The notes under the pieces are model-generated. The model was not told where the DNA came from. It worked only from the letters and a program-made list of their open reading frames with translations, and did no database searches. From positions 1 through 23,823 of IMG/VR virus record IMGVR_UViG_3300020214_001748: a DNA stretch of 23,823 nt. One strand, 5' to 3'. Source of the DNA: a virus. Shown here one piece after another: positions 553 through 23,823 of this stretch; the stretch's first letter is position 1; every line of letters begins with the position of its first letter. Made by a program: the position numbers and the translations under genes.

Positions 553-2069
553 TGCTTTATTCACTAGAGGTAGAAAAACAGTTTCTGGCGGGGCTAATTC
601 AATATCCAGAGACCTATTCTGAAATCTGCGATTTTGTTTCTGAATCTGATTTTTATTCAGAGGATACGATTGTTCACAAAACAATCTATCATATTATTCG
701 CAAGTGTATTGAATCAAATGAAAAAGTTGACGAAATCATTATCGCTCAACAAATTAAAGAAATAGGTATATCCTTTGAAGACAACATTGATATTTTTGAT
801 TACTTAAGATCTCTTGCCGTCAGAAAAACAAATAAGACTACTGCAATTTCTGCCGCCAAAGAAATCAAAAAATATTCAATCAGAAGATCTATTCACGCAT
901 CCGCTATTGAGGTCGCGGAAAAAATGAAGAAGATTGCCCCAGACTCTTCTTATCAAAAAATTGTTGAAGAAGCTGATACTACTTTTAATAAGATTATAAA
1001 TATTTATGAAAACAATGAAGAAAGGCCAATCAACATCTTTGAAGAAATGGAAGCTGTCATTGAAGAGCGCGGCAACAATCCTATTACTGAATTCGGTTTC
1101 ATGGGTCCATTTCCCACTGTTAATAAGATTTATGGATCTCTTCTTCGCCCCGGTAATATTACTGTTGTGGTGGCACGTTCGGGTGTAGGTAAAACTTTAC
1201 TTGCACTTAATTACACAACTAAGGTTTCCGCTCAATATGATGTTCCCGTCCTCCACTTTGATAATGGAGAAATGAGCAAGGAGGAGGTTATTATGCGTCA
1301 GTGCGCCGCATTGAGCCATGTCCCGATGCATTTACTTGAAACTGGTCTTTGGCGCAAGGCTGGAGAAGATGTTGTTGAGCGCGTTCGCTCTACTTGGGAC
1401 AAGGTAAAAAAGCTTAAATTTTATTATTATAATGTAGGTGGTATGACCACAGACCAAATGCTTAATAATCTTAAGCGTTTTTATTACTCAAAGGTTGGTC
1501 GGGGCAATCCTCTTATCTTTAGTTTCGATTACATCAAGCCTTCTGCCGATGCCGATGGTAATAAACCAGAATGGCAGGTTATTGGCGATATGTTGAATAA
1601 GTTTAAAAGGACTATTCAGCGAGATATCGTGCAGGGTCAAAAACCAATGATTACAATGTTTACTTCGATTCAGTCAAATCGGAGCGGCATTACAACAAAC
1701 AGAAATTCTGATACTATTAATGACGATGAAGGCATCGTATCAATGTCAGATCGAATCACGCATTACTGCTCTCACATGGCAATTTTGCGCCCGAAAACGG
1801 CGGATGAAAGACAGGAAGAAGGCGTCAACTTTGGTTCCCATAAACTCATCTTTGTGAAAAATCGTTTTCTTGGTTCTGACGTTGCTGGTGCGGTTGAATT
1901 AGTTTCAATGCCAGATGGAACACTTAAAAAGAATTTTATTAATCTTCAGTTTGAAAATTTTGACATCAAAGAGCGTGGTGACCTTCGCGATATTGTAAAT
2001 CAAGCAGACACAAACACAACAACATTACAAAATTCTGGTGAAGACGACAATGTCCCAAACTTCAATTGA
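552..2069 (+). CDS. dnaB: DnaB-like replicative DNA helicase
   Basis: This is a hexameric 5'-3' replicative helicase of the RecA-fold DnaB family (505 aa, close to the usual 450-510). Residues about 1-110 match the helical DnaB N-terminal domain, which normally contacts primase. The C-terminal ATPase domain has Walker A ARSGVGKT (residues 208-215). Walker B ends at Asp326 in the segment FSFDY, and the DnaB-type motif with IQSNRSG follows. The C-terminus is acidic and Asn/Thr-rich and overlaps the primase gene by 20 bases. There is no Shine-Dalgarno sequence before the ATG; the upstream TAATG overlap suggests re-initiation. It would unwind the phage replication fork together with the downstream primase and the split polymerase. 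No intein or intron is visible. Confidence 0.95.
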   Translation: MLYSLEVEKQFLAGLIQYPETYSEICDFVSESDFYSEDTIVHKTIYHIIRKCIESNEKVDEIIIAQQIKEIGISFEDNIDIFDYLRSLAVRKTNKTTAISAAKEIKKYSIRRSIHASAIEVAEKMKKIAPDSSYQKIVEEADTTFNKIINIYENNEERPINIFEEMEAVIEERGNNPITEFGFMGPFPTVNKIYGSLLRPGNITVVVARSGVGKTLLALNYTTKVSAQYDVPVLHFDNGEMSKEEVIMRQCAALSHVPMHLLETGLWRKAGEDVVERVRSTWDKVKKLKFYYYNVGGMTTDQMLNNLKRFYYSKVGRGNPLIFSFDYIKPSADADGNKPEWQVIGDMLNKFKRTIQRDIVQGQKPMITMFTSIQSNRSGITTNRNSDTINDDEGIVSMSDRITHYCSHMAILRPKTADERQEEGVNFGSHKLIFVKNRFLGSDVAGAVELVSMPDGTLKKNFINLQFENFDIKERGDLRDIVNQADTNTTTLQNSGEDDNVPNFN

Positions 2070-3129
2070 CCCAATTGTTCTCAGAAGCTCTCTTGAGTCT
2101 TTAGGTTATTGCCTTAAAGATTATGGAAGTTATTGGCGAACAAGAGCTTTATATCGTGGTGGCGATAATACCACCGCTTTAAAGATATATAAAAATACTG
2201 GCGTATGGACAGATTTCGCGACTGGTGGATCAAAAAGCTATCCATTCCAAAGACTTGTGGAATTGACCTTGGACACCAAAGACTCCTACGTCGTGAATAA
2301 GTATGTAAAATTTGACGCCAGTAATATTATCCATGTACAAAACAAGGAGAAGCTTGAGATGGAAAAAATCTACCCAGAATCAATGCTAGAAAATCTTTTG
2401 CCCCATCTTGATTTTTATTCCAAGAAAATGATAAGTAAAGATACGCTTGATTTTTACAAGTGTGGTTATGCAACTTCTGGTCAATTGTTCAGAAGAATCG
2501 TGTTTCCAATTTATAATCAATTTGGGCAGATTCATGGATTTTCTGGTAGAGCGGTCTTTTGGCAAAAAGATTCAGAGTTTCCAAAATGGAAACATGTGGG
2601 TAAGAGAGCAGATTGGATTTATCCGCTTAATCTAAAGCGCAATGGATCTTCAGAAGTTAAGGACGAAATTGAGAAGCGGCGTTCAATCATTATTGTCGAA
2701 AGTATTGGAGATAGTATGGCTCTTTTCGAGCATGGCTATAAAAATAACCTAGTAACCTTTGGACTTGGAGTTTCTTCAAAACTTTCTTCTTCATTAGTAG
2801 CTTTAGACCCAGACAAGATTATTATTGCCTCAAACAACGATAGCGAAGGCGAAACAAATCACGGCTTAATTTCAGCCTGTAAAACCTTTCTGCAACTGTG
2901 TTCTGTTTTTGATTACTCGAAATTGCAGATTAAGCTACCGCTTAAAAATGATTTTTTCGATATGCATCTAGCGACATTTGAAGGGGAAGATTCCATCTTT
3001 AATCAATGGGAAGAAAAGAAAATAAACATGGAAACTCAAATCAAAAAGATTTATGAAGTTGCGGTCGCCAATAAGTTCTCCAATAATCTTATTGAGAGAG
3101 CCGAGAAGATTTTAAATGACGCAACCTGA
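2050..3129 (+). CDS. DnaG-type DNA primase with TOPRIM domain
   Basis: This enzyme should make RNA primers for replication. I chose ATG 2050; GTG 2038 in the same frame would add four residues. Residues about 1-75 have the layout of a CHC2 zinc-binding domain (YWR..., then VWTDFATGG, then PFQRLVEL), but the zinc-ligand Cys/His residues are absent. About 100-190 is the primase core with the segment RRIVFPIYNQFG followed by GFSGR. TOPRIM follows: IIVESIGDSMALFE with Glu217 as the conserved acid, then IIASNNDSEG with Asp264. About 280-359 is a short C-terminal region that may bind helicase. It overlaps dnaB upstream by 20 bases and the nuclease downstream by 14 bases. At about 359 aa it is shorter than bacterial DnaG (about 580-600), as is common in phages. 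Confidence 0.85.
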   Translation: MSQTSIDPIVLRSSLESLGYCLKDYGSYWRTRALYRGGDNTTALKIYKNTGVWTDFATGGSKSYPFQRLVELTLDTKDSYVVNKYVKFDASNIIHVQNKEKLEMEKIYPESMLENLLPHLDFYSKKMISKDTLDFYKCGYATSGQLFRRIVFPIYNQFGQIHGFSGRAVFWQKDSEFPKWKHVGKRADWIYPLNLKRNGSSEVKDEIEKRRSIIIVESIGDSMALFEHGYKNNLVTFGLGVSSKLSSSLVALDPDKIIIASNNDSEGETNHGLISACKTFLQLCSVFDYSKLQIKLPLKNDFFDMHLATFEGEDSIFNQWEEKKINMETQIKKIYEVAVANKFSNNLIERAEKILNDAT

Positions 3130-4153
3130 AATCAAACACGTTGCGCTATCTGCAAGTCGAATCAAAACTCTCGAAAAGTGTAGTTGGTCGTATTGGTGCA
3201 ATTATATTCTCAAGCTGCCAGAGAAGTCCAACGATGGCGCTAGTAGAGGAAATGTAGTTCACCTTGTTCTTGAGTGTCTTGCAAAGCAAAAAAGGAAACC
3301 TTATGTCGATACCATCTTAAATGCTGGTGATATTTTTACAATCAAGTCTATTAAAAAACTTGCATTGAAACACGCTAGAAAGTTAAAAGTTTCTGATCCA
3401 GATAATATTGATATGATCAGAGAGATGACTTTAACCGCCCTTAAATATGATTTTTGGGGTGATGCGGGAAAAGCTCCAGTGCAAGATTTGCAAGAGAGAG
3501 ATTTCGATATCACAGTTAACAAAAAAGATAAAAAGTATAGAATTAAAGGTTTTATTGATCGTCAGTTTATTTACGATGATGCGACTTCAGTAGTCAGAGA
3601 CTATAAAACTAGTAAAGCTGTATTTGCCGGTAAGGATGCCGAAGACAACATGCAGCATATGATTTATATTCTTGCCTCCAAGAAACTTGATCCAAAACAT
3701 AAGGTTTCAATGGAGTTCTTATTTCTTAAGTTTGATCTTAAAGATAAAACTAAGAATGGTGGTCTATTAAAAATGGAGCCGCCTAATAAAAATGAACTCA
3801 GTGAGTTCGAAAATCATTTAACTGAAGTTCAAAAGGTTGCCGATAACTTCTCTGAGCCTGATGCTTATTCTAATTTTGCAGCAGACAAGCCGATGCCGTC
3901 AGATGGTTCGTTTAGCGGCAAACTGGCTTGTGGCTTTGCCAAATACAAAGGCCATCTGAAGAAAGACGGCAATCCAATGTGGCATTGCCCATACAAATTT
4001 GGATTTAATTACTATGCCTTAAGAGATAAAGATAATAAAATAATTAAAACTTTCCTAGAGGAAGATATGAACGAAGCTTTTAAAATTGCCAAACCAGAAG
4101 AAAAAGTTACCAAAGAAGCTTATTTGGGATGCCCAAAGCACTTGACACCCTAG
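3116..4153 (+). CDS. RecB/Cas4-like PD-(D/E)XK exonuclease
   Basis: This is a 345-residue nuclease of the PDDEXK_1 (RecB-nuclease/Cas4-like) group. The N-terminus has the family signature SASRIKTLEKC..SYWCNY, followed by RGNVVHLVLE, whose His is the usual helical metal-site residue. The catalytic core is GFIDR (Asp148) and RDYKT (Asp162, Lys164). The QHMIYILA segment is the typical later QxxxY motif. Cysteines at 22, 28, 272, 291 and 339 are spread as one N-terminal group and a C-terminal group. This resembles the Fe-S cluster arrangement of Cas4/AddB nucleases, but cluster formation is inference. It lies between primase and polymerase genes and overlaps primase by 14 bases. A role in end resection, recombination-dependent replication or fork processing is likely; polarity and substrate are unknown. 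Confidence 0.85.
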   Translation: MTQPEIKHVALSASRIKTLEKCSWSYWCNYILKLPEKSNDGASRGNVVHLVLECLAKQKRKPYVDTILNAGDIFTIKSIKKLALKHARKLKVSDPDNIDMIREMTLTALKYDFWGDAGKAPVQDLQERDFDITVNKKDKKYRIKGFIDRQFIYDDATSVVRDYKTSKAVFAGKDAEDNMQHMIYILASKKLDPKHKVSMEFLFLKFDLKDKTKNGGLLKMEPPNKNELSEFENHLTEVQKVADNFSEPDAYSNFAADKPMPSDGSFSGKLACGFAKYKGHLKKDGNPMWHCPYKFGFNYYALRDKDNKIIKTFLEEDMNEAFKIAKPEEKVTKEAYLGCPKHLTP

Positions 4154-4175: not shown

Positions 4176-4913
4176 ATGATCCCGCTATTCAAGTCTCACT
4201 TTTCTTTTGGGAAAAGTATCCTTACTCTAAATGAGCCAGAGAAGCAGAAACAGGACGGGCCAGATAGTATTATTTCAATCGCTCTTGATAATAAATTAAA
4301 AGAACTTTATCTTGTTGAAGACTCTTTGACTGGATTTTTAACTGCTTTTAAAAACTGCAAAAAATACAATATTCAGTTAAAGTTTGGCCTTAGAATTAAT
4401 ATTTGCAATAGTTATGAATCAGTAGATTCTTCTACTAGTAAACTTATTCTTTTTGCTTTGAATGATTCTGGCTTTAAGGATATTAATAAAATCTATACTT
4501 TCATAAATACCGAGAAAGACTCGGTGATTGCTAATTTTGATTTAGTGGAACGCCTAACAGATAATATTTTAATTGGCGTTCCGTTTTATGATTCATATAT
4601 TTGGAAAAATAGATATACATTTTCTAATTGTATGCCAGATTTTCTTGACGGCGAGAATGTTGTTTACTTTACAGAAAATAATAAATTACCTTTTGATAAA
4701 ATAACTACAGCTTTAATTCACTCTAGTCATAAAGAAAATATCGTTAAAGCTAAAACTATTTATTATAAAAATCGCGAAGACTTTTCTGCTTGGGTCACCT
4801 ACAAGATAGCTTGTAATAGAAACATGGGCAAAAATCAAAGTCTCTCGGCTCCAGAGCTTGGTGGATGCGGCAGTAAAGAATTTTGCCTCCAATCTTGGAG
4901 GGAGGCTTCATGA
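4176..4913 (+). CDS. Stand-alone PHP-like domain of DNA polymerase III alpha
   Basis: This 245-residue protein resembles the N-terminal PHP domain of DnaE as a separate chain. The opening LFKSHFSFGKS matches the first PHP strand of DnaE. It is followed by helix-strand units ending in KELYLVEDSLTGF and then a segment KFGLRINI, which corresponds to the DnaE segment with PIVGADF. The region about 200-235 may correspond to the start of the linker that leads to the palm in DnaE. Of the usual metal ligands only His8 is clear. The expected Asp two residues later is Ser10, and other ligands are not obvious, so the domain is probably structural rather than catalytic. Its stop overlaps the exonuclease start (ATGA). 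The assignment rests on fold-level similarity read by eye plus position just before exonuclease and polymerase genes. Confidence 0.65.
   Translation: MIPLFKSHFSFGKSILTLNEPEKQKQDGPDSIISIALDNKLKELYLVEDSLTGFLTAFKNCKKYNIQLKFGLRINICNSYESVDSSTSKLILFALNDSGFKDINKIYTFINTEKDSVIANFDLVERLTDNILIGVPFYDSYIWKNRYTFSNCMPDFLDGENVVYFTENNKLPFDKITTALIHSSHKENIVKAKTIYYKNREDFSAWVTYKIACNRNMGKNQSLSAPELGGCGSKEFCLQSWREAS
4885..4906 (+). promoter_or_regulatory. Hairpin masking the Shine-Dalgarno of the exonuclease gene
   Basis: CCTCCA (4886-4891) can pair with TGGAGG (4896-4901) around a four-base loop. Alternatively GCCTCC (4885-4890) pairs with GGAGGC (4901-4906). Both structures cover a GGAGG Shine-Dalgarno element that precedes the ATG at 4910. 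The element lies inside the last codons of the PHP-like gene, so ribosomes finishing that gene would open it. This suggests translational coupling; the regulatory role is inferred from the pairing alone. Confidence 0.45.
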
Positions 4914-5536
4914 ACAACCTTTTAAAACAAAAAATTAATCAAAAGTTCGTAGTATTTGATACTGAAACAGAAGGTTTGTCTTTGACTGATTCTCGTCCTT
5001 GGCAATTGTCTTGGATCGTTTGCAAAGGAGAAGAAGTTATTGAAGAGCATGATGAATTTATTTTGTATGGCGACTTAAACGTATCTGAAGACGCCGCCAA
5101 GATAACTGGATTCAACAAAGAGAAATATCTTTCTAGAGCAAAGCCTCCTATAGAGGTATGGAAAAGATTTGCTAATTATCTATACGATAAACATAATATT
5201 TTGGTTGGACAGAATATTCTTGGATATGATATTTATATTTTAAATACTATGATGCAGGGTATTGGAATACAGAATGATTGGAGTTTTATTGAAAGGGCGC
5301 TTGACACCAAAGCTTTGGCCACTGCATTATTCAAGAACATAAAGCCGTCTGGAGACTTGCTCTCTTGGCAAATGAAACTAATGAACCATAGAGAGAAAGG
5401 ACTTAAAACAAGTCAGGGGTTTCTGCTTAAGCAGTTTGGTATTGATCATGATCCTTCAAAGCTTCACGATGCTTTGTATGATATTCAGATGAACTATAAG
5501 ATTTTCCGCAAGCTAATTATGCAGGTTGACGTATGA
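4910..5536 (+). CDS. DnaQ-like DEDDh 3'-5' proofreading exonuclease
   Basis: This 208-residue exonuclease should remove misincorporated 3' nucleotides for the adjacent polymerase. Exo I is FDTET (Asp17, Glu19), Exo II lies in GQNILGYD (Asp107), and Exo III is LHDALYD (His186, Asp191). That gives a complete DEDDh set as in DnaQ/epsilon. I chose ATG 4910 rather than an upstream in-frame ATG at 4883, because 4910 has a GGAGG element at the right distance and an ATGA overlap with the previous gene. The next gene also begins in an ATGA overlap (5533-5536). The domain ends soon after Exo III, with no evident clamp-binding or alpha-binding tail as in E. coli epsilon. Its place between the PHP-like and polymerase chains strongly suggests it acts in one complex with them. 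Confidence 0.9.
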   Translation: MNNLLKQKINQKFVVFDTETEGLSLTDSRPWQLSWIVCKGEEVIEEHDEFILYGDLNVSEDAAKITGFNKEKYLSRAKPPIEVWKRFANYLYDKHNILVGQNILGYDIYILNTMMQGIGIQNDWSFIERALDTKALATALFKNIKPSGDLLSWQMKLMNHREKGLKTSQGFLLKQFGIDHDPSKLHDALYDIQMNYKIFRKLIMQVDV

Positions 5537-8097
5537 GTAATTTATTAAATAGCTTCCAAAAGTACGAACATCCTGTTCCTCCTGGTGTTCGCTTACCAGA
5601 AATCAAAATTGATGCTCGCTACTATCAAGAGCTTGGCATTGATGCGTCAGTTTCAAACACAGAGTTTCTGCGGCAGCTTTGTTTGAGAGCCGTAAGAACA
5701 AAGGGTATAGATAAACTACCTAATAAAAAAGACTATTATGAAAGAGTAAAGTACGAATTGACAACCTTTGAAGAACTTGGTTTCGTTGATTACGTTTTGC
5801 TGAACTGGGACATTCTTAATTATGCTCATGAGCATAATATTCCTACTGGTTACGGGCGTGGTTCTGCGGCTGGATCTCTCATTCTTTTTTTAATTGGGGT
5901 TACTAATATAGATCCAATCAAGAACGGGTTATTTTTTGAGCGGTTTGTTTCAAAGAGTCGCGCCAAGAAGATTGTTGTAGATGGCATTACTTATCTTGAT
6001 GGGTCGTTAATGCCCGACGTTGATAATGATATTGAGTTTTCAAAACGTCAGGATGTTATTAATTATATTAAAACAAAGTATGCCGGTAAAACTTGCAAGA
6101 TCCTTACCATGAATACTCTTACTGGTAAACTTTGTATCAAGGAATGCGGAAAGATTGTTGGCGAAATGTCAGAAGATGAAGTTAATGCCGTAAGCGATAT
6201 TATCCCAAAGCAATTTGGCAAGGTTTTCGCCCTCAAGGACGCTTACGAAGAAAGTGATCAGTTCAGGGCGTTTTGCGACAAAAATCCAAAAATTTATAAA
6301 ATTTCCAAAAAGATTGAAGGCTTAAATAAAAACACTGGCGTCCATCCATCTGGTATTTCTATTTCTTATTATGATAACGAAGAGGTTATGCCGTTACAGA
6401 AGACAGGGGACGGAGAAATTGTTTCTGCATACGACATGAATAACGTATCAGAAATTACAGTTAAGTTTGATATTCTTGGATTAAGAACACTAACTGTTGT
6501 TTATGATACTTGCCAAATGCTCGGCCTAGACTTTAAAAATCTCAATTTCGATAGCGCATCAACATATAAATTTTTACAAGACCTATCTAATCCCAAGGGC
6601 TTATTTCAAATCGAAGCCAATACTAACTTTTATGTTTGCAAAAAAGTAAAACCAAGAAATATGCTTGAACTTGCGTGCGTTCTGTCTCTAGCCCGACCTG
6701 GCGCACTAGACTTTTTAGATCAATATGCGCGATATGTTGCTACTGGACAATTCCAATCTATCCACCCTTTCTTTGATGATATTCTCGGAATTACTGGCGG
6801 CATCCCAATCTTTCAAGAGCAGTTAATGAAGATGATTGTTAAAGTAGGATTCACTCTTGATGAAGCCGAAACGGTACGTCGCATTATAGGTAAGAAAAAA
6901 GTTAGCGAGATGCCCGCTTGGCAACAGAAGATCAGAGAAAAAGTTGCCGCTAATAATCTTGAGGCTGCTGTTGCCGATGTACTTTGGAAGGTCGCAGAAG
7001 ACAGCGCGAACTATTCGTTCAATGCGTCTCATGCCGTATCTTATGCTACTCTTTCTGCATTAACTACTTATCTTAAGTTTAATCATCCAAAAGAATTCTT
7101 TCTTGCTTTGCTTAGATCTTCTAAACATGAGCCAAATCCACACGAAGAAATCGAGTCAATTTCTCAGGAATTACCCTTTTTTAACATTAGACTTTTACCA
7201 CCAGATCTTTCTAAATCTAAAGCTGATTTTGAGATTGAAGGAGACAACATTCGATTTGGTCTCAACGCCATTAAAGGCGTATCAGATAAAGTTCTAACGC
7301 ATCTTCTTGAATTTAGACAAGAAGAATTCGCGAATAAAATCGATTGTTTCGACGGGGCCAAAGAAGCTGGAGTTAATATTGGAGTCCTGTCTTCTTTGAT
7401 TCAAGCTGGGACATTATCCAGCTTTAGCGAAAAACGCTGTCGCTTAGTTCTTGAAGCTCAAACTTACAATATTTTGACAGATAGAGAAAAACGTAATATT
7501 AAACTTATAGGACTAAAATACAATTATGACGTTCTTAATATCATAGCCGATTTAGTCAAAAATAAATCAGTTGGAGACGACGGCAAACCTTTCATGAAAG
7601 AAAGTCGCTTTGAAACATTTAAAAATAAGTATGAGCCATACAAAAAGATTTATGACATGAATAAAAAATACGAAAAGTTTGCTAATTGGTTTTTTGAAAA
7701 GCGCCTTCTTGGCTACAGCTATACCCATAAATTAAAAGATGTTTTTAATGATGGCCCAGATATGTTTCATAATACTTATGAAGCTTCGCAAGTTGATCTT
7801 CGTCAAAATGTAAAAATGGTAGGTATTGTTAAAGAATCTCGCAAAAAAATTAGCCGCGCTGGTCGCCCATATTTATTAGTTAAAATTTCAGATGAATATG
7901 GGCAAATGACCTGTCGCCTCACCGATGGCGGTCGAGACGATAAGTTTACTCAGTATTACGAAGGAGGCGGCAAAACGCCAAAGGAAGACGATATCGTTGT
8001 TCTTTATGGTTCTAAAGCAGACGATTCAATCTTTCTAAATGGCTTGACAATCCTCACAGAAAAGATATATACAAAACTATCACAGATCGAAAGTTGA
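5533..8097 (+). CDS. dnaE: DNA polymerase III alpha, polymerase core (DnaE-type, no PHP)
   Basis: This is the family C replicative polymerase core, 854 aa against about 1160 for E. coli DnaE, because the N-terminal PHP domain is absent. It begins at the palm-proximal linker. YGRGSAAGS (about residues 110-118) matches the DnaE GRGSGAGS motif. The catalytic acids are present as PDVDND (Asp164, Asp166) and KFDILGLRTL (Asp313), equivalent to E. coli D401, D403 and D555. HPSGISI, FQIEAN, RRIIGKKK and YSFNASHAVSYA are further family C motifs. A segment WFFEKRLLGYSYTHKL precedes a C-terminal OB fold (about 750-845). No canonical clamp-binding pentapeptide was found, and the tau-binding domain is missing. 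The motifs are DnaE-like rather than PolC-like. It is translationally coupled to the exonuclease by ATGA and should replicate the phage genome. Confidence 0.93.
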   Translation: MSNLLNSFQKYEHPVPPGVRLPEIKIDARYYQELGIDASVSNTEFLRQLCLRAVRTKGIDKLPNKKDYYERVKYELTTFEELGFVDYVLLNWDILNYAHEHNIPTGYGRGSAAGSLILFLIGVTNIDPIKNGLFFERFVSKSRAKKIVVDGITYLDGSLMPDVDNDIEFSKRQDVINYIKTKYAGKTCKILTMNTLTGKLCIKECGKIVGEMSEDEVNAVSDIIPKQFGKVFALKDAYEESDQFRAFCDKNPKIYKISKKIEGLNKNTGVHPSGISISYYDNEEVMPLQKTGDGEIVSAYDMNNVSEITVKFDILGLRTLTVVYDTCQMLGLDFKNLNFDSASTYKFLQDLSNPKGLFQIEANTNFYVCKKVKPRNMLELACVLSLARPGALDFLDQYARYVATGQFQSIHPFFDDILGITGGIPIFQEQLMKMIVKVGFTLDEAETVRRIIGKKKVSEMPAWQQKIREKVAANNLEAAVADVLWKVAEDSANYSFNASHAVSYATLSALTTYLKFNHPKEFFLALLRSSKHEPNPHEEIESISQELPFFNIRLLPPDLSKSKADFEIEGDNIRFGLNAIKGVSDKVLTHLLEFRQEEFANKIDCFDGAKEAGVNIGVLSSLIQAGTLSSFSEKRCRLVLEAQTYNILTDREKRNIKLIGLKYNYDVLNIIADLVKNKSVGDDGKPFMKESRFETFKNKYEPYKKIYDMNKKYEKFANWFFEKRLLGYSYTHKLKDVFNDGPDMFHNTYEASQVDLRQNVKMVGIVKESRKKISRAGRPYLLVKISDEYGQMTCRLTDGGRDDKFTQYYEGGGKTPKEDDIVVLYGSKADDSIFLNGLTILTEKIYTKLSQIES

Positions 8098-8104
8098 GTG
8101 TAAA

Positions 8105-10516
8105 ATGAATACAGTGCAAGATATTAATTTTACTCCTAAAGTAAGAAGGGCTTTAGATGTCGCAAGGCAACGCTGCGTTGAAAACAATCAGGAAGAAATC
8201 ACGGATGAATTTTTATTGCATGCGGTTTTGTTTTCTGAAAACATGATTGTTAATATGGTATTTCAATCGTTATCCATTGAAACCAAAGACGTTATTCTGG
8301 CGTTATCTAAAATTCTTCCGTCCAGCAAGAAAAAAATTTCTGCAAAAAATATTATTTATAGCGCAAGCTCAAGTTTAATTATCAATGAGTCTCATAATAT
8401 TTCTCAAAGCTTTAAGCAAAACTACACTGGTATAGAGCATATTTTCCTTTCTCTTTTGAGAAACTCTAAAACAGTAACAAGGTTTTTTAAAAAAAATGGA
8501 GTTGATGTTGGTTTTATTTCGCAAAAAGTGGAAACGGAATGCAGGATGCTTTCTAATCCCGTAAAAAAACCGCTTCAGCAGAAAGAACAATCCGAACAAA
8601 ATAATGTTTTGTCGGCCTTTTGTTCTGATTACAATCAGATGGCGCTAAACGAATCTTTTGATAATATTTTCTTTAGAGAAAAAGAAGTAGCTAAAATGTC
8701 CGAAGTGCTTTGCAGAAAGCAAAAGAAAAATGCTATTTTAATTGGAGAACCTGGCGTTGGCAAAAGTGCGATTGTGGGCCTTTTGGCGAAAAAAATTATA
8801 TCTTGCGAATGTACCGAGTTTCTTATCAACAAAAAAATCATTTCTCTTAATCTTGCGAATCTTATTGCTGGAACCAAACTTCGTGGCGAGTTTGAAGAAC
8901 GCTTGGTCAAAACAATGAACGAGATCAAGAAGATGGGAAACGTTATTGTATTTATCGATGAAGTTCATAATGTTATAGGAATGGGCAATGACGCTGGCTC
9001 TATGGATGCAGCGAACATTCTTAAACAGTACTTAACTACCGACGAAATATCTTTCGTTGCGGCCACAACTCAATCAGAGTATGAAAATTACTTTGTTAAA
9101 GATAGCGCTATGAATCGGCGCTTTGAACCAATTTTTGTGTCTGAGCCGTCGAAAGAAGAAACTTTTAAAATTTTAAAATCGCTTAAGAAATTTTATGAAA
9201 AATTTCATATGGTTTATTATAGCGATAACGTTATCACTGATATCGTTAATCTTTGTGAGAAATATATCCCATCTCGTAAATTTCCAGACAAAGCCATTGA
9301 TTTGATGGATCAAGTTGGATCGAAGGTAAAGATTAGATCTTTTTCTCGTCCACAAGAAATAAAAGACATTGAAAAGTTAATTGTAGAATTTGAAAAGCTC
9401 GCGCCAGATAATTTAAAAGAAAATCACCTTAAGCTTCTAATTAAAGATTATGAATTGAAATATGATATTTGGACATCTTCAGTAAAAGGTAAAATTTTTA
9501 AAGCTAAAACAAAAGACGTTTATCAAGCTTTATCGGATAAAATAGGTAAATTTATTGATAGCAAATCGGACAACGATGGCATAAAAAATATTTTATCTAA
9601 TTTGAAAAAATACGTCTTTGGTCAAGACGAAGCTTTGAAAAAGATATCTGACTGCGTACTTAGAAGCTCGTTTGGGCTGGCAAAGGTCACCAAACCCCTT
9701 GGCAGCTTTATGTTTGTCGGTCCGACTGGATCAGGTAAAACTCACGCAGCCAGAACATTGGCTAAACAAGCGTTTGGCGACGAAGCCAATCTTTGTGTCG
9801 TCGATATGTCGGAGTTTATGGAGCAGCATTCGGTTTCTAAATTAATAGGCTCCCCGCCAGGTTATATCGGATATGGTGGAGCAAACCTTTTTTGGTCTCA
9901 CCTTGACAAGCATCCCTCCTCTGTTTTTCTTTTTGATGAAATTGAAAAAGCCCATCCAGACGTAGTTAATATTCTTTTGCAAATTATGGACAGTGGGCAA
10001 CTTACAGATTCTATGGGCAGAAAATTAAGCTTCAAAAATTCAATTATCATCATGACCGGAAACGTTGGATTTCAAGCCAATGACAATAAAAAGATAGGAT
10101 TTGGGGCGTCCGTAAATCAAAAGCCGAGTAAAGAAACCGTAACAGATAATCTCAAAAAATTTTTTAGACCAGAGTTTTTAGCCAGATTAAATGATATCAT
10201 TATATTTGACGAGTTGCAACAAGATTCTTTAATTAAAATTGCGCAAAGCGAACTTAATCAAATTAAAGATTCATTAAAACAAAATCAAACCATTTTAACC
10301 TATTCTAGCGATGTTGTTGATTTCATTATAAATAATACAAAAAATAGTAACACTGGAGCTAGAAAAATAATTTTCTTTATCGAAAATGAATTAAAGAGCA
10401 AGATCGTTGACATTCTTTCTCTCAACAACTATAATAAAATTAATGTGTCAGTTAAAAACGGACAGATTTATATAGATGGAAAAGTTAAAAAATTATTTGC
10501 AACTTGTAAAAAATGA
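8105..10516 (+). CDS. ClpA/ClpC-like AAA+ protein unfoldase
   Basis: This 803-residue Hsp100 protein has two AAA+ domains, close to ClpA/ClpC length. A Clp N-domain spans about 1-145, with the second half starting near YTGIEHIFLSLL. D1 has Walker A GEPGVGKS (214-221), the pore-proximal KLRGEFEERL, Walker B FIDE (Asp285, Glu286) and MNRRFEP as arginine-finger region. A middle segment of about 65 residues near 418-485 is probably helical. D2 has Walker A GPTGSGKT (539-546), SPPGYIGYGG pore loop, Walker B FDE (Asp611, Glu612) and RPEFLARLND. An IGF tripeptide (664-666) sits where ClpA/ClpC carry the ClpP-docking loop, so it may feed substrates to host ClpP. No ClpP gene is in the window. It follows the polymerase by seven bases, and its role in the phage cycle is unknown. 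Confidence 0.92.
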   Translation: MNTVQDINFTPKVRRALDVARQRCVENNQEEITDEFLLHAVLFSENMIVNMVFQSLSIETKDVILALSKILPSSKKKISAKNIIYSASSSLIINESHNISQSFKQNYTGIEHIFLSLLRNSKTVTRFFKKNGVDVGFISQKVETECRMLSNPVKKPLQQKEQSEQNNVLSAFCSDYNQMALNESFDNIFFREKEVAKMSEVLCRKQKKNAILIGEPGVGKSAIVGLLAKKIISCECTEFLINKKIISLNLANLIAGTKLRGEFEERLVKTMNEIKKMGNVIVFIDEVHNVIGMGNDAGSMDAANILKQYLTTDEISFVAATTQSEYENYFVKDSAMNRRFEPIFVSEPSKEETFKILKSLKKFYEKFHMVYYSDNVITDIVNLCEKYIPSRKFPDKAIDLMDQVGSKVKIRSFSRPQEIKDIEKLIVEFEKLAPDNLKENHLKLLIKDYELKYDIWTSSVKGKIFKAKTKDVYQALSDKIGKFIDSKSDNDGIKNILSNLKKYVFGQDEALKKISDCVLRSSFGLAKVTKPLGSFMFVGPTGSGKTHAARTLAKQAFGDEANLCVVDMSEFMEQHSVSKLIGSPPGYIGYGGANLFWSHLDKHPSSVFLFDEIEKAHPDVVNILLQIMDSGQLTDSMGRKLSFKNSIIIMTGNVGFQANDNKKIGFGASVNQKPSKETVTDNLKKFFRPEFLARLNDIIIFDELQQDSLIKIAQSELNQIKDSLKQNQTILTYSSDVVDFIINNTKNSNTGARKIIFFIENELKSKIVDILSLNNYNKINVSVKNGQIYIDGKVKKLFATCKK

Positions 10517-17282: not shown

Positions 17283-19583
17283 ATGAAAAAACTAATGACC
17301 GTCAACAAGAGAAGCGGAGAAGTTGAAAAATTCGATGCAGATAAAATTAATAAAGTTTTAGAATGGGCTTGTACTGGAATTCACGACACTTCATTTGAGG
17401 AGGTCGCGATGAACGCCAACCTTTCTTTTTTTGATGGAATATCTTCAAAAGATATTCACAATACGTTGATTGAAGCTGCTTCTGGGTTAATTTCTGAAGA
17501 AAAGCCTCAGTATCAATATGTTGCCTCTCGTCTTTTAAATTATCAATTGCGCAAAGAAGTTTGGGGCGGCAAAAACGCTCCAAAGCTCATTGATTTCGTA
17601 AAAGAAAATATTAAAAATAAAGTTTACGATCCTGCTATTCTTGAATGGTACGACGAGCGTGAGTTTCACAAGCTTGACGAGTATCTTCGGCATGATCGTG
17701 ATTTTATTTTCACATACGCTGGTATTAAACAGCTTTGTGAAAAGTATTTAGTTCAAAATAGAACTAATAAGAAACTGTACGAAACTCCTCAATTTGCCTA
17801 TATGCTCATTGCAATGACCTTGTTTAAAGATTATAAGAGCGAGCGCATCTCTTTTATTAAAAAAGCTTATAATTATTTTAGCCAGCACAAGATTAATCTT
17901 CCTACTCCAATTATGGCTGGGGTCAGAACAACATTGAAATCTTATGCTTCTTGCGCCTTGTTCAGCGTAGACGATTCATTAGATTCTATCTTTGCCAATA
18001 ATAGCGCTATTGGCTTTGCTACCGCAAATCGTTACGGTATTGGCATTAATGCAAGTCGTCTTCGAGCCGTTAATACTCCAGTTAAAGGCGGCATGGTAAG
18101 TCACACTGGACCAGTTCCGTTTCTTAAGATGTTTGAGTCTACCGTAAAGTCTTGTCATCAGAATGGCATTCGCGGCGGCTCTGCAACGGTAAACGTGGCT
18201 TGGTTTCATCACGATATTGAAGACATTCTTGTTCTCAAAAACAATGCTGGGACCGACGATAATCGAGTTCGTAAACTTGATTATTGCATTGGATTTGATC
18301 GCACGTTCTATGATCGTTTGATCAAGAACGAAAGTATCACTTTGTTTTCTTATCATGAAGCTCCAGAGCTTTGGGATAGCTTTGGTATGCCTGAATTCAA
18401 AGAGCTTTATGAAGAGGCGGAAAAAAACAAGAGTCTTAAATTTAAAAAGACAGTAAATGCTCGCGATTTATTTTTCTTGTTTTCTAAAGAGCGCGTAGAA
18501 ACTGGTCGTATTTATTTAATGAACGTTGACCATGCAAACTCGCACGGCTCTTGGAACGCTCAGGTAGACACTAGTAATCTTTGTCTTGAAGTTAATCATC
18601 CACTCAAACCAATAAAAGACTTGAATGATCCTAACGGAGAAATTGGCGTTTGTATTTTATCTGCCGTCAATCTTCTTGAGGTAATCAAGGACGAGATGGA
18701 CTCTGTGTGCGAAATTATTGTTCGTATGCTTGATGCTCTAATTGATCATCAAAACTATTTCGTTCCTGCTGCCGCTAATTTTGCTAAAAATCGCCGCAGT
18801 CTTGGAGTTGGCGTTAGCAATCTTGCTGGCTATCTTGCAAATATTGGAGTCAAGTACACTGATAAGAATGCCGCAAATAAAGCTGCGGCTATTATGGAAC
18901 TTGTGAGTTATAATTTAATCAAGGCTTCAGTTAAGATGGCTCAAGAAAAAGGGCCATGCGCTTTGTTCTCTGAAACAAAGTTCTCAAACGCTATTCTACC
19001 AATCGATACTTATTGCAAAAATATTGATGAGTTTGTTACTGAAAAACTTCATTGCGATTGGGAAGGCTTGCGAAAAGAAATTAAAACACATGGTATGCGC
19101 CATAGTACCCTAACTGCACTTATGCCTGTCGAGTCTAGTTCTGTTATTCAATCCTCAACCAATGGGATTGAGCCTCCCCGCTCTTTGATTTCCTACAAGC
19201 GCTCAAAGGCTGGAGTTATTCCTGTTGTTGTGCCTCATATTAAAAATAACAAAGATAATTATACTCTCGCATTTGAAATGCCTAATAATCAAGGTTATCT
19301 GAAAGTTGTCGCTGCTCTTCAAAAATTTGTAGACATGAGCATTTCAACTAATCTTTATTACAATGCCACTCGTTATCCAAACAAAATTCCAAGTCAAGGA
19401 GAACTTGTCGGGGACTTAATTTTGGCTTATAAATATGGTATTAAAAATCTTTATTACACAAATACGTTTGACGGCGATACGCAGACCGCATTACATACGA
19501 AACAAGAAGTTAAACAAGAAGTAAAAACTGAAAAATCGCAAGACGATACCCAAGGCTGCGCTGGTGGAGCTTGCACCTTATAA
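17283..19583 (+). CDS. nrdA: Ribonucleoside-diphosphate reductase class Ia, alpha subunit
   Basis: This is the catalytic large subunit that reduces ribonucleotides to deoxyribonucleotides (766 aa, close to E. coli NrdA at 761). An ATP-cone for allosteric control covers about 3-95. Active-site residues are present: Cys224 (ASCALF), Asn432, Cys434 and Glu436 in NLCLE, and Cys457 (VCILS). Tyr724/Tyr725 of the radical path are in LYYTN. The C-terminal shuttle pair is Cys759/Cys764. A short Gln/Glu/Lys repeat precedes that tail. I chose ATG 17283 because the upstream 12 residues from 17247 do not match the family. There is no Shine-Dalgarno sequence; TTGGTA (17233-17238) and TAATAT (17255-17260) are a possible but weak promoter. 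It would supply dNTPs for phage replication with nrdB next to it. No intron or intein is visible. Confidence 0.96.
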   Translation: MKKLMTVNKRSGEVEKFDADKINKVLEWACTGIHDTSFEEVAMNANLSFFDGISSKDIHNTLIEAASGLISEEKPQYQYVASRLLNYQLRKEVWGGKNAPKLIDFVKENIKNKVYDPAILEWYDEREFHKLDEYLRHDRDFIFTYAGIKQLCEKYLVQNRTNKKLYETPQFAYMLIAMTLFKDYKSERISFIKKAYNYFSQHKINLPTPIMAGVRTTLKSYASCALFSVDDSLDSIFANNSAIGFATANRYGIGINASRLRAVNTPVKGGMVSHTGPVPFLKMFESTVKSCHQNGIRGGSATVNVAWFHHDIEDILVLKNNAGTDDNRVRKLDYCIGFDRTFYDRLIKNESITLFSYHEAPELWDSFGMPEFKELYEEAEKNKSLKFKKTVNARDLFFLFSKERVETGRIYLMNVDHANSHGSWNAQVDTSNLCLEVNHPLKPIKDLNDPNGEIGVCILSAVNLLEVIKDEMDSVCEIIVRMLDALIDHQNYFVPAAANFAKNRRSLGVGVSNLAGYLANIGVKYTDKNAANKAAAIMELVSYNLIKASVKMAQEKGPCALFSETKFSNAILPIDTYCKNIDEFVTEKLHCDWEGLRKEIKTHGMRHSTLTALMPVESSSVIQSSTNGIEPPRSLISYKRSKAGVIPVVVPHIKNNKDNYTLAFEMPNNQGYLKVVAALQKFVDMSISTNLYYNATRYPNKIPSQGELVGDLILAYKYGIKNLYYTNTFDGDTQTALHTKQEVKQEVKTEKSQDDTQGCAGGACTL

Positions 19584-19585
19584 TA

Positions 19586-19831
19586 ATGAAAACCGTACTT
19601 AATACTGTAAACGTGGACTCGCTCAAGCAGCCGCTCTTTCTTGGTGAAGACTTGGCGATTCAAAGGTATGATCGCTTAAAGTATCCCAAGTTCTATGATC
19701 TTTATGATCAGCAGATTAACTTCTTCTGGCGACCACAAGAAATTAATCTTACAAAAGATGCGGCTGATTATAAGAATCTTTCTCCAGAGAAAAGTTTGTT
19801 TTTGATAGCAATCTCCGCTTTCAGACTATGA
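19586..19831 (+). CDS. nrdB: Ribonucleotide reductase beta subunit, N-terminal fragment
   Basis: This 81-residue piece matches the start of class Ia NrdB: a LFLGEDLAIQRYD segment, then INFFWRPQEINLTKDAADY, then the beginning of the second core helix. It aligns without gaps to E. coli NrdB up to the residue equivalent to Tyr79, then runs into two wrong residues and a stop. All iron ligands lie after the break, so this fragment alone has no metal site. ATG 19586 is two bases after the nrdA stop; an upstream TTG in the same frame is less likely. The stop (19829-19831) overlaps the next start as ATGA. Either one base is missing near 19819-19822 or nrdB is expressed in two pieces. Confidence 0.88.
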   Translation: MKTVLNTVNVDSLKQPLFLGEDLAIQRYDRLKYPKFYDLYDQQINFFWRPQEINLTKDAADYKNLSPEKSLFLIAISAFRL

Positions 19832-20640
19832 CAGACTCAATGCTATCGCGCAGTATTGGGTCGCTTTCTAACTATGTTAGCAACCCAGAGCTTGAGATCT
19901 GCATGAATGTTTGGTCTTTCTTCGAAACCATTCACAGCAATAGTTATACATATATCTTGCAAAACGTTCACCCAGACGCCACAAAATTTTTTGATTCGAT
20001 TCTTGATGATAAAGAAATTGTCAAAAGGGCGCAATTTATTTCTAATAAATACGACGCTCTTCTGAATACCAAGAGCGACGATCCGAAACAACAGATTTTT
20101 GACGCACTTCTTTCAACCCAAATCACTGAGGGCGTGACTTTCTACATCTCGTTTGCTTGCTCGTTTTATTTTGGCTATCGCGGTAAAATGGAAGGAAATG
20201 CTAAAATTATTAATTTAATTTCTCGCGACGAAAATCTTCATGTAGCTATTAGTCAAAATATTTTAAAAATTCTTCGCAACGAGCCTAAAGAAGGGTTCCA
20301 AGATATTTTTAAGAAAAATGAAGATAGGATTTATGAGGGCTATCGTATGGCAGTGGAAGCAGAAAAAGATTGGGCTGATTACCTTTTTTCAAAAGGTAGT
20401 TTAATTGGCCTTACCGCCGATTCATTGAAGCATTACGTTGAATGGCTCGCTGACAACCGACTCACTTCGATGGGATACAAAAGGCTTTACAACGTCAAAA
20501 GTAATCCTATTGCTGGGTGGCTGGACAGTTTCTACGACAGTAAGAAAATTCAAGTCGCTCCACAAGAGACTGAGATTTCTTCTTATGTAAAAGGCGTTGA
20601 CAGTAAAATCGACGAATCAGTATTTGATATTAAATTTTAA
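19828..20640 (+). CDS. nrdB: Ribonucleotide reductase beta subunit, main fragment with the radical site
   Basis: This 270-residue fragment holds the whole di-iron tyrosyl-radical site of class Ia NrdB. Asp3 (equivalent to E. coli D84), Glu33 and His36 in ETIH, and Tyr40 (equivalent to the radical Y122) are near the start. The later ligands lie in QITEGVTFY and DENLH. The C-terminus SSYVKGVDSKIDES..DIKF matches the tail that binds NrdA. Reading this frame back to 19819 and joining it to the previous one gives AF-QTMTDS, which fits the family exactly with a -1 shift. No canonical slippery heptamer is present at the junction. The ATGA overlap would allow separate translation. It ends three bases before the convergent tail gene, with no terminator visible between them. 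Confidence 0.93.
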   Translation: MTDSMLSRSIGSLSNYVSNPELEICMNVWSFFETIHSNSYTYILQNVHPDATKFFDSILDDKEIVKRAQFISNKYDALLNTKSDDPKQQIFDALLSTQITEGVTFYISFACSFYFGYRGKMEGNAKIINLISRDENLHVAISQNILKILRNEPKEGFQDIFKKNEDRIYEGYRMAVEAEKDWADYLFSKGSLIGLTADSLKHYVEWLADNRLTSMGYKRLYNVKSNPIAGWLDSFYDSKKIQVAPQETEISSYVKGVDSKIDESVFDIKF

Positions 20641-20643
20641 TTA

Positions 20644-23600
20644 CTAAATAGCTAGATACCGGCCTCTATCGTCTCTCCATTCGTTTTCGTCTCTAGTAAT
20701 TTCTGCCCTTTCGCCAGGACGAATAGTGGAAATTAGTTCTCCGTTACTGGATTCTATAAATAGACTATATTCAAGACCAGCATTTATTATTACTATTGTA
20801 TCGCCTTCTGCAACCTCTGTTGGCAAAACCATTGTAGAATCTGAAATTGGCGTCACTAAATTCGTTTTATTTATTTGATCGGTAGGAATATTAAATTTAA
20901 TTTCAACTTGTTTAACTTTACCAACGGTTGTGCCACCTCCAGAAACAGCTCCTCCATTATATGTAAATTCAACATTTAAAGTTGGTGAGTCTGCGCCTAT
21001 AGCAACCCAATTTATTTCTGAATTACCAAGCTGCTCTATTTTGTACTTTAAGTTTTTTATTAACGGATTATTATTGTTAGAAACATTAATGGCTTGTTTC
21101 TGATCTCTCCCTCCATCCAAAAAATATCTGTTCGCAGTTGAAGGGGTGGTTTCAGCTTGTTCCATTTCTAAATATCCACTTACAACTTTAGAAGTAAAAC
21201 CGGGTCCGTAATCATCCCAAGGTCTGAATCTAAAATACAACCATTCTCCTGTGGGTAAACGTTCTCCAAGAGTAATTACATTCAGATAGCTTCTTGTTTC
21301 AGTTAAAGAAACTGTCGCAAACTTATTAGTGTGATTAACCAAGTCTGGAGTAAATACTCTTTTCACAGTTGCTGTTCCATTAATTGTTTGTCCATTATAT
21401 TGAAATTCGCTACCCAGTATTGGAGTATTTGAATCGTGACCTATTGTTTTCCAGTTTACATTACTACCCGTAGTCACAATTTCGTAATAATTATCTTTTT
21501 CCATACTAGTATGGTTTATAATATTAGTATATCCTACTCCAGTATATACATCAACACTTAAAACATCTTTATTTGAAGTGGCGTTGAAGCAATTAAATAT
21601 AATTTTACTTTTTGAAACAGGTTCTGGCAACACACTGAAAGCAATTCCAGAAAACCCTGTTTTATTTGGTAGTGTAATATCATGAAGATTACAAATACCT
21701 AGTGGGTTGCCTTCTTTTGTTGATAATTCCCTTCCTTCAAACTGACCGAAAGAAGAATAGTGTTCTGCTCCCCATTTGGAAATAGATTTTGATTTATCAA
21801 CGTATTTTTCATAATGTTCTATCAAATCTTTAGATTCATATCCATATTTTGCCATAGTTCCGCCTTTATAAACATATGTTTCAAAATCAGGTTCGCCAGT
21901 TCCTTTAACATTAATTCCAACAGCAGCCCTTGTTCCAGAAAGTAATCCAGTGCCATTATAAAACGTAGCCGTAGAAAATGCTCCAGATATATCTCTAAAT
22001 GTCAATGGGACACTTTCGTCTTCACTCCTTAGTAAGTTACCACCAGCATCTCTTACTCCAGAACCTGAAATTGTTGTTATGGCTCCAATTGTACTTGCCA
22101 CATCAGGGCTCCAAACAGCTAATCCAGTAAAATTTCTATTACCGTAATATCCAGACAAAATTTGATATGGAGAGTTTTGAAAAGAGTCTATAACCTGTAT
22201 CCTGGAATAACCAGGGTATTGATTTACCGCTTGAAAGGTTCCTGTTTTAGACAAATTGGTGTTATCGGTAACAATGACCCTTAATCCTATTTCTCTTGAA
22301 TATTCTATAGACTCTGGAGTTCTGGAGCTATCAAACATAGCAGCATTATTTGCTTGTGTTATTCTATAAGATAAACCTTGATAGTTTTTTTCTTCTTTTA
22401 TCACTTGACCAGCAGAATCTAAAACTTGAACCGTAACTTTTTGAGGCAAGTCAACAAATGGATTTTCGTAAATTTGCTCTTTGGTTGCCATTTTCCCGCC
22501 CGTAGGATCAAGATATTTCCATCTAAAAACTAAATCTTTTGAAGTCCAATTGCCCCTGCCGTTTCCACTGTAAGTACCATTATCAAAACCAATTGAATAT
22601 TTTACAGAGTCTTGATCTGCGGTATCAATTGTGAATCCACTTGGAATTGTAGAAGTTAATAATTCATTAATGTCATTGATTTTTAAATTTGCAGAAGGTA
22701 GCATAACGATTCCTGTCGCCACATAATCGGAAAGTAATTTATATGTTGTTCCTTGCGAATATATTTTAAAATCATATTGGCCCCAAATGTCATTACCGTC
22801 TGAACCTGTTATTGGGATTGTTAAAGTATGTATTCCTGATGGAGTAGAGTATGCTTGAACTATTGAGTCATACTCATTTGTTGTTGAATAGTCTGGTTTA
22901 CTAACGTAAACTTTATATCCAGTAATTGGACTATTTGTTCCAGACCAAATAATGTGAATGCCAGTGTATTTTGTCGTTCCAGAAAAGCCACTGATGCTTT
23001 GTATACCAGATGGCGGATTAGGTTTTACGACCACATCATATGGCCCCTGAACATAATAACTAGGCGAAGTATCTAAAATATCTTTTTCAATATAATCATC
23101 CTTATTGTTTAAATATTCAATACCTACAATGCCGTATTGATTAGCCTCTTCTTCTTTTGTTGCAATAGTTTTGTATAGTTTTGGCTCAACGCCCGAGCCG
23201 CTTAGAACATAAAGAGAGCCTTCAGAGACTAAATCTAAATTTTGAGGAGTTGTATCTACTGTTAAGCTATAAATACCTTTAGGATATCCAGTGCCATAAA
23301 CTAAGCCGCTATATCCAATACCATTAGATTCTGGCAATGATTTCAAATCAGATTGGCCTAGTGTTCCGCCTCCAACATAAACCTCCAACCCAAGTGCAGT
23401 AAATGCGCCAGACACAAGAGCAGATGTCAAAGTTGTGGTTAGCGGAATTTTCCCTGTACCATAAAAATCTTTTGGCAAACCAACAGAATAATAACCATCG
23501 CTATTTCCTCTGGTCCATTTTGTTGATGATGTATTATTCCCGATTCCTGGGGTGGACGCAAAAGTTACTGTCTCATTAGTTCGGGTAAGTGTTGGATTTT

Positions 23601-23823
23601 TGTCAATATGGAAAGTGATGCTATTTGGGTCGTCGCTTATACTATTTATTCTTGAATTTTCTGGAATTCCAGAGCCAGCAACGTACATTCCTACAGCAAC
23701 TCCACCAAGTTGAGAAATGCTTTGAGTTGTTAATCCAATATTTTTATTTAATGTTGCAATATCGCATTGTCTGGTGAATTCGTTTAAGTAATCTTCAGTA
23801 AAGTATTCTTTAGACGTATGATC
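20644..23823 (-). CDS. gpJ-like tail-tip / host-specificity protein, 5' partial
   Basis: The frame is open to the right edge, so the N-terminus is missing; 1059 codons plus a TAG stop are present. The ATG at 23686-23688 is internal. Near visible residues 218-250 the segment ANQYGIVGIEYLNNKDDYIE matches the end of the phage lambda J-type hub domain. A fibronectin-type-III-like domain follows (about 265-365), starting PNPPSGI. Later regions are beta-rich and Gly/Ser/Thr-rich. About 655-700 has a WGAEHYSSFGQFEGR motif seen in surface and secreted proteins. Two diverged copies of a NW.xIG...F.YNG module lie at about 778-823 and 926-970. The protein should sit at the tail tip and bind the host receptor. 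It is the only - strand gene visible here and converges on nrdB. Confidence 0.85.
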   Translation of the reverse strand, partial: DHTSKEYFTEDYLNEFTRQCDIATLNKNIGLTTQSISQLGGVAVGMYVAGSGIPENSRINSISDDPNSITFHIDKNPTLTRTNETVTFASTPGIGNNTSSTKWTRGNSDGYYSVGLPKDFYGTGKIPLTTTLTSALVSGAFTALGLEVYVGGGTLGQSDLKSLPESNGIGYSGLVYGTGYPKGIYSLTVDTTPQNLDLVSEGSLYVLSGSGVEPKLYKTIATKEEEANQYGIVGIEYLNNKDDYIEKDILDTSPSYYVQGPYDVVVKPNPPSGIQSISGFSGTTKYTGIHIIWSGTNSPITGYKVYVSKPDYSTTNEYDSIVQAYSTPSGIHTLTIPITGSDGNDIWGQYDFKIYSQGTTYKLLSDYVATGIVMLPSANLKINDINELLTSTIPSGFTIDTADQDSVKYSIGFDNGTYSGNGRGNWTSKDLVFRWKYLDPTGGKMATKEQIYENPFVDLPQKVTVQVLDSAGQVIKEEKNYQGLSYRITQANNAAMFDSSRTPESIEYSREIGLRVIVTDNTNLSKTGTFQAVNQYPGYSRIQVIDSFQNSPYQILSGYYGNRNFTGLAVWSPDVASTIGAITTISGSGVRDAGGNLLRSEDESVPLTFRDISGAFSTATFYNGTGLLSGTRAAVGINVKGTGEPDFETYVYKGGTMAKYGYESKDLIEHYEKYVDKSKSISKWGAEHYSSFGQFEGRELSTKEGNPLGICNLHDITLPNKTGFSGIAFSVLPEPVSKSKIIFNCFNATSNKDVLSVDVYTGVGYTNIINHTSMEKDNYYEIVTTGSNVNWKTIGHDSNTPILGSEFQYNGQTINGTATVKRVFTPDLVNHTNKFATVSLTETRSYLNVITLGERLPTGEWLYFRFRPWDDYGPGFTSKVVSGYLEMEQAETTPSTANRYFLDGGRDQKQAINVSNNNNPLIKNLKYKIEQLGNSEINWVAIGADSPTLNVEFTYNGGAVSGGGTTVGKVKQVEIKFNIPTDQINKTNLVTPISDSTMVLPTEVAEGDTIVIINAGLEYSLFIESSNGELISTIRPGERAEITRDENEWRDDRGRYLAI

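Follow-up and report, generated by a model that had tools for sequence, protein, structure and literature searches.

Separate genes for the PHP, exonuclease and polymerase parts of a DnaE-type DNA polymerase III in an uncultured phage group

The window analysed in this study is a stretch of 23,823 nucleotides of viral DNA (positions 1 to 23,823 of the IMG/VR record IMGVR_UViG_3300020214_001748). Three consecutive genes on its plus strand encode a stand-alone DnaE-type PHP domain of 245 residues with nine substituted metal-ligand positions (4176-4913), a DnaQ/PolC-exo-like DEDDh 3'-5' exonuclease (Exo) of 208 residues counted from the ATG at 4910 (4910-5536), and a polymerase chain (Pol) of 854 residues with DnaE-type palm, thumb, fingers, tandem HhH and OB domains (5533-8097). 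The stop and start codons overlap as ATGA, also on the plus strand, at 4910-4913 (PHP-Exo) and at 5533-5536 (Exo-Pol), an arrangement of translational coupling. The three reading frames and both overlaps lie exactly where an earlier note on this DNA had placed them. A Shine-Dalgarno-like sequence, GGAGG, is found upstream of Exo in the window. GGAGG or AGGAG precedes Exo in 21 of 89 relatives against a background of 1%. Since this feature is enriched and yet not general, it was not relied on as a sign of independent starts.

The three genes lie in a replication block. Upstream of PHP, on the same strand, are genes for a DnaB-like replicative helicase (552-2069), a Toprim primase (2038-3129) and a Cas4-like PD-(D/E)XK exonuclease (3116-4153). 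A homolog of the helicase was found in 40 of the 41 relatives with room for it, and homologs of the primase and the nuclease were each found in 40 of 41 relatives. Directly 3' of Pol is a gene for a ClpA/ClpC-like double AAA+ ATPase (8105-10516, plus strand). It starts within 700 bp of the end of Pol in 50 of 52 relatives and was not found in the deepest branch (L050 and L058); we know of no link between this ATPase and the polymerase. The order helicase, primase, PD-(D/E)XK nuclease, PHP, Exo, Pol and ATPase is kept as a block. Elsewhere in the window, nrdB, the gene for the small subunit of ribonucleotide reductase (19571-20640), occupies two overlapping frames of 86 and 270 residues. It is a single open frame in the 16 relatives checked, and the split seems to reflect a frame break in this record and not a conserved division. 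An open reading frame of 1014 residues on the minus strand (20644-23688) has no Pfam match and a weak PHROG match to a virion protein.

The PHP relationship of 4176-4913, on which the earlier note had made its reading depend, was confirmed by profile alignment and predicted fold. By Pfam the relationship is weak (E 2e-5 and 25.2 bits, slightly below the cut-off of 26.4), and a sequence search against the PDB gave only weak matches to DnaE and PolC (E 0.07-0.2). The chain also matches the PHP part of the phage polymerase family phrog_405 (E 1e-8), as do the PHP chains of 28 of 29 relatives. A profile of 29 relatives was aligned with nine DnaE PHP domains over 219 columns (hhalign, E 1.5e-12). 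The predicted structure (pLDDT 90) superimposes on residues 6-247 of E. coli DnaE with a Z score of 22.5 and an rmsd of 2.7 over 226 residues, while Z was 18-19 for the PHP domain of PolC and at most 12 for other PHP enzymes. The profile alignment and the predicted fold therefore make the assignment certain. As modelled, the chain is a whole DnaE-type PHP domain, uninterrupted over DnaE 6-247.

The metal site of an active PHP domain of Pol III has the signature HHDHEH[C/H]DH (PMC12926913). In the profile alignment, the nine signature positions of the PHP chain are gap/L4, K6, E48, D49, R73, K89, F137, T194 and Y196, so that all nine ligands are lost. It is therefore very unlikely that the chain is a metal-dependent nuclease. 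The PHP chains carry invariant motifs of their own, PFYDS and N-LPFD, and diverge faster than Pol (31-47% versus 44-61% identity among deep relatives). Between the loci L028 (PHP at 4611-5378) and L029 (PHP at 4614-5381), PHP is 98% identical, whereas Exo is 86% and Pol 92% identical. This pattern of identities suggests that PHP may have been exchanged separately by recombination.

For 5533-8097, Pfam, sequence profiles and the predicted fold agree with the claim that the gene encodes a DnaE-type polymerase core lacking PHP. Pol matches DNA_pol3_alpha (PF07733, E 1e-60), the finger domain (PF17657, E 4e-28) and HHH_6 (PF14579, E 5e-18), as well as phrog_405 over positions 327-1081. The motifs GRGSAAGS, PDVDND and KFDILGLRTL, which had been put forward as DnaE-like, are present, and the catalytic residues D162, D164 and D313 are invariant among the relatives. 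The OB domain is C-terminal, at about 744-844. From about model residue 14 on, the predicted fold of Pol (pLDDT 86) fits DnaE structures (Z 28-38) better than PolC (Z 20-27), and it aligns with residues 270-910 of E. coli DnaE and with Taq DnaE up to residue 1122 of about 1220. Sequence profiles gave E values of about 1e-116 to 7e-116 for DnaE and only 1e-8 for PolC. Pol has no PHP domain at its N-terminus. Since the PHP chain ends at DnaE 247 and Pol starts at the equivalent of about 270, the break corresponds to the boundary between PHP and palm. The only part of DnaE missing from the two chains together is the C-terminal domain after OB, where Pol ends. This domain is also absent in DnaE2 and in some DnaE3 (PMC3919608).

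Three relatives show variations of the Pol gene. In L057 (5995-9783), Pol contains a full-length intein before CVGKKK, matched by the intein N-terminal model TIGR01445. In L058 (6001-9879), Pol is broken between YSFNK and SHS by an apparent split intein, the halves of which are separated by a free-standing open reading frame of 325 residues (7766-8743) with a NUMOD3 motif. This arrangement looks like the published 'fractured gene' arrangements, and its site is close to that of the split inteins of cyanobacterial DnaE. In L040 (5251-8583), Pol has an N-terminal extension of roughly 250 residues without a Pfam match.

The middle gene, to which Pfam and PHROGs give as unambiguous an identity as to Pol, encodes, as had been proposed, a complete DEDDh exonuclease: it matches RNase_T (E 1.5e-14), and the five active-site residues D17, E19, D107, H186 and D191 are invariant in 18 sequences. 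Exo is about equally close to the PolC model (4e-12) and to DnaQ models (1.5e-10). Nothing follows the last helix of the RNase_T domain, and the chain is 208-215 residues long in most relatives. In E. coli, the epsilon subunit binds the PHP domain of alpha through its C-terminal tail. An epsilon-type tail is absent from the Exo chain, and its docking mode must therefore differ from that of E. coli epsilon.

The earlier note had also suggested a PolC-like layout. PolC is a single chain whose PHP domain harbours the exonuclease and is preceded by the OB domain, while DnaE carries PHP and polymerase in one chain. The gene order PHP-Exo-Pol and the slightly better score of Exo against PolC than against DnaQ would be expected of a PolC broken into its domains. 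In this locus, however, PHP is whole, the Exo gene follows it, the OB domain is C-terminal, and both the profile and the fold scores of Pol favour DnaE. A broken PolC is thus extremely unlikely. The likeness to PolC stops at the gene order.

To analyze the conservation of the split, a protein search of IMG/VR (58 loci) was combined with a PHP-profile search, which gave at least 560 related stretches, the best 80 loci of which were taken. PHP is apart from Pol in 92 loci of this set, counted by distinct PHP genes, with Pol 44-95% identical. The search for the same gene order proposed in the earlier note thus found separate PHP, Exo and Pol reading frames in all these loci, a recurrence that is more than chance. 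All relatives come from IMG/VR or from a small number of metagenome bins (labelled Flavobacteriaceae, Halobacteriovorax and others). A tblastn search of 50,697 phage records with the PHP chain as query found nothing at 0.01, so that annotated phages contain no close relative within reach of this method. A tree of 45 sequences groups the split polymerases in a single clade (support 100/100), which fits a single origin. For pairs with unsaturated dS, the dN/dS ratios of PHP, Exo and Pol lie at about 0.02-0.1 and indicate purifying selection on each of the three genes.

It is worth noting that a split gene can also arise from frame breaks of assembly or sequencing in an ordinary fused dnaE, and nrdB of the same record does look frame-broken when compared with its relatives. 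In this case, however, an exonuclease gene lies between the two parts, and the same split is found in distinct loci from many assemblies. The earlier note had named related phages with the PHP-like chain fused to the polymerase among the observations that would refute it, and none of the 92 distinct loci in the family has a PHP-Pol fusion. Three fused matches, in a Pacebacteria bin (29% identity) and in two Gram-positive phages, all lie outside the family. An assembly error is refuted by the conservation of the split, and its probability is negligible.

The junctions bear on the question of whether a programmed frameshift, read-through or intein trans-splicing could still link the chains. The ATGA overlaps do change the frame, and there is the apparent split intein inside Pol of L058. 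The PHP-Exo junctions of the 92 loci comprise 64 short overlaps, two adjacent genes without overlap, one longer overlap, 22 pairs more than 30 bp apart and three that run off the contig end, so that the spacing could be tested in 89 relatives. The overlap is of 4 bp in 36 of the 92 at PHP-Exo and in 56 of the 92 at Exo-Pol. The 22 wider gaps mostly contain a whole unrelated gene, and PHP is 1 kb or more from Exo in some relatives. A GMP reductase/IMP dehydrogenase-like gene lies between PHP and Exo in L038 (4389-5363), L042 (4231-5184), L110 (6758-7714), L145 (4365-5345), L148 (3996-4970) and others. Other insertions encode a SET-domain protein (L133), cupin-fold proteins (L129, L145) and an HNH nuclease (L084), and in L040 (3548-4491) two similar genes of 153 residues lie between PHP and Exo on the opposite strand. 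With such genes in the gap, no frameshift joins PHP and Exo. No intein-like sequence is found at the ends of PHP, Exo or Pol, and an Exo-Pol fusion was never seen among the loci examined. It is therefore very unlikely that the chains are joined. The gene order PHP-Exo-Pol of the earlier note is present in the window, but in view of the wide gaps it is not a fixed, fusion-like layout.

Ten large records of the family (112-206 kb) each contain exactly one split-type Pol and one PHP; in the record of L058, the one Pol lies in two pieces. No family A or family B DNA polymerase was found in these ten records, and a search for the beta-clamp with PF00712 gave no match in them, which might reflect a clamp that has diverged too far or reliance on that of the host. 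Since the records carry no completeness estimate, these absences are provisional. The single Pol and PHP, the lack of a family A or B polymerase and the block with helicase and primase together point to a replicative role. It appears that the only DNA polymerase detected in this uncultured phage group consists of three separate proteins, of which PHP is apparently inactive.

How might the three chains work? The metal-less PHP domain of E. coli is a structural element, and mutations in it reduce the stability and activity of Pol III (PMC3666897). The decay of PHP accompanies a separate epsilon-type DEDDh exonuclease, and a role in positioning this exonuclease has been proposed for PHP (PMC3666897). 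Because a dead PHP and a live DEDDh protein are combined here as in E. coli, docking of PHP in trans is the simplest mechanism. We consider it probable that the three proteins constitute a Pol III core, with PHP as a structural, non-catalytic subunit acting in trans and with proofreading by the DEDDh chain. Pol would polymerise DNA as a C-family enzyme of the DnaE type, and Exo would excise mismatched primer ends. The PHP chain, its metal site lost, would dock on Pol at the site of the covalent PHP in DnaE, stabilise Pol and probably position the exonuclease. We infer the physical complex, the scaffold role of PHP and proofreading in trans. As to its origin, an ancestral PHP-Pol gene may have lost its PHP part to a separate gene a single time in this phage lineage, and the exonuclease gene may have come to lie next to Pol. 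The separate-chain polymerase holoenzyme of the earlier note survives as a separate-chain core, which is the most likely reading, but 'holoenzyme' goes too far for records in which no beta-clamp gene was found.

Several facts count against the three-chain core, namely the faster divergence of PHP, its apparent separate exchange in the pair L028 and L029, its distance of 1 kb or more from Exo in some relatives, and an Exo without the epsilon tail. It could be that PHP has left the polymerase, its fold being kept and repurposed, for example for binding a replication or host protein, and that Pol works without a PHP domain. Its separate gene, its rapid evolution, the loss of all metal ligands, its own invariant motifs and the separate recombination would all agree with this. 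PHP nevertheless remains in the replication block, is single-copy in all ten large records, keeps the full DnaE-PHP fold and is often ATGA-coupled to Exo-Pol. We therefore regard repurposing as unlikely. It is likewise rather improbable that Pol replicates with no PHP attached or bound, PHP now being a different replication or host-directed factor. If that were the case, PHP would be dispensable for the C-family polymerase fold.

The three-chain core is of interest because the role of PHP in E. coli has been probed by mutation inside the chain. With a natural, conserved stand-alone PHP that is apparently catalytically dead, this role can be tested by adding or omitting one protein. The split also shows how, within a large lineage of phages, a presumably replicative polymerase can come apart into subunits along the borders of its domains.

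To our knowledge, every bacterial C-family polymerase surveyed carries PHP within the polymerase chain itself. PolC likewise possesses PHP, a DEDDh exonuclease, to which Exo is about as similar as to DnaQ, and a C-family polymerase, but in a single chain, whereas the phage has three chains and a DnaE-type Pol. Among phages, PHP was found apart from Pol in one further case, the Weasels2 group of Rhodococcus phages. In Peregrin (gp99/gp100), Grayson, Weasels2 and Trina, PHP and Pol are encoded in two genes that overlap, and the cut lies close to the same boundary between domains. Their PHP, however, retains the motifs HMH and TDH for metal binding, no exonuclease gene lies between, and their Pol falls outside the split clade in the tree. 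In Pseudomonas phage PB1 (gp58-gp57), a separate gene for an RNase_T-type exonuclease immediately precedes that of a DnaE-type polymerase, whose PHP is decayed but still fused to Pol. In jumbo phages, a minimal Pol III alpha is split over several genes (PMC7824862), but there the cut is inside the catalytic core, PHP is absent and a family B polymerase is present alongside (PMC7824862). The individual elements are thus already known from these three precedents, which lowers the novelty. No description of a separate phage PHP chain was found in the literature searched, and the lineage-wide combination of a dead stand-alone PHP, a separate Exo and a PHP-less Pol was not found described there.

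In comparison with E. coli DnaE and epsilon, the phage has PHP as a polypeptide of its own, an Exo from which the epsilon tail is missing, and a Pol that lacks the C-terminal, tau-binding domain. The two systems nevertheless share the polymerase domains, a metal-less PHP and a separate DEDDh proofreader.
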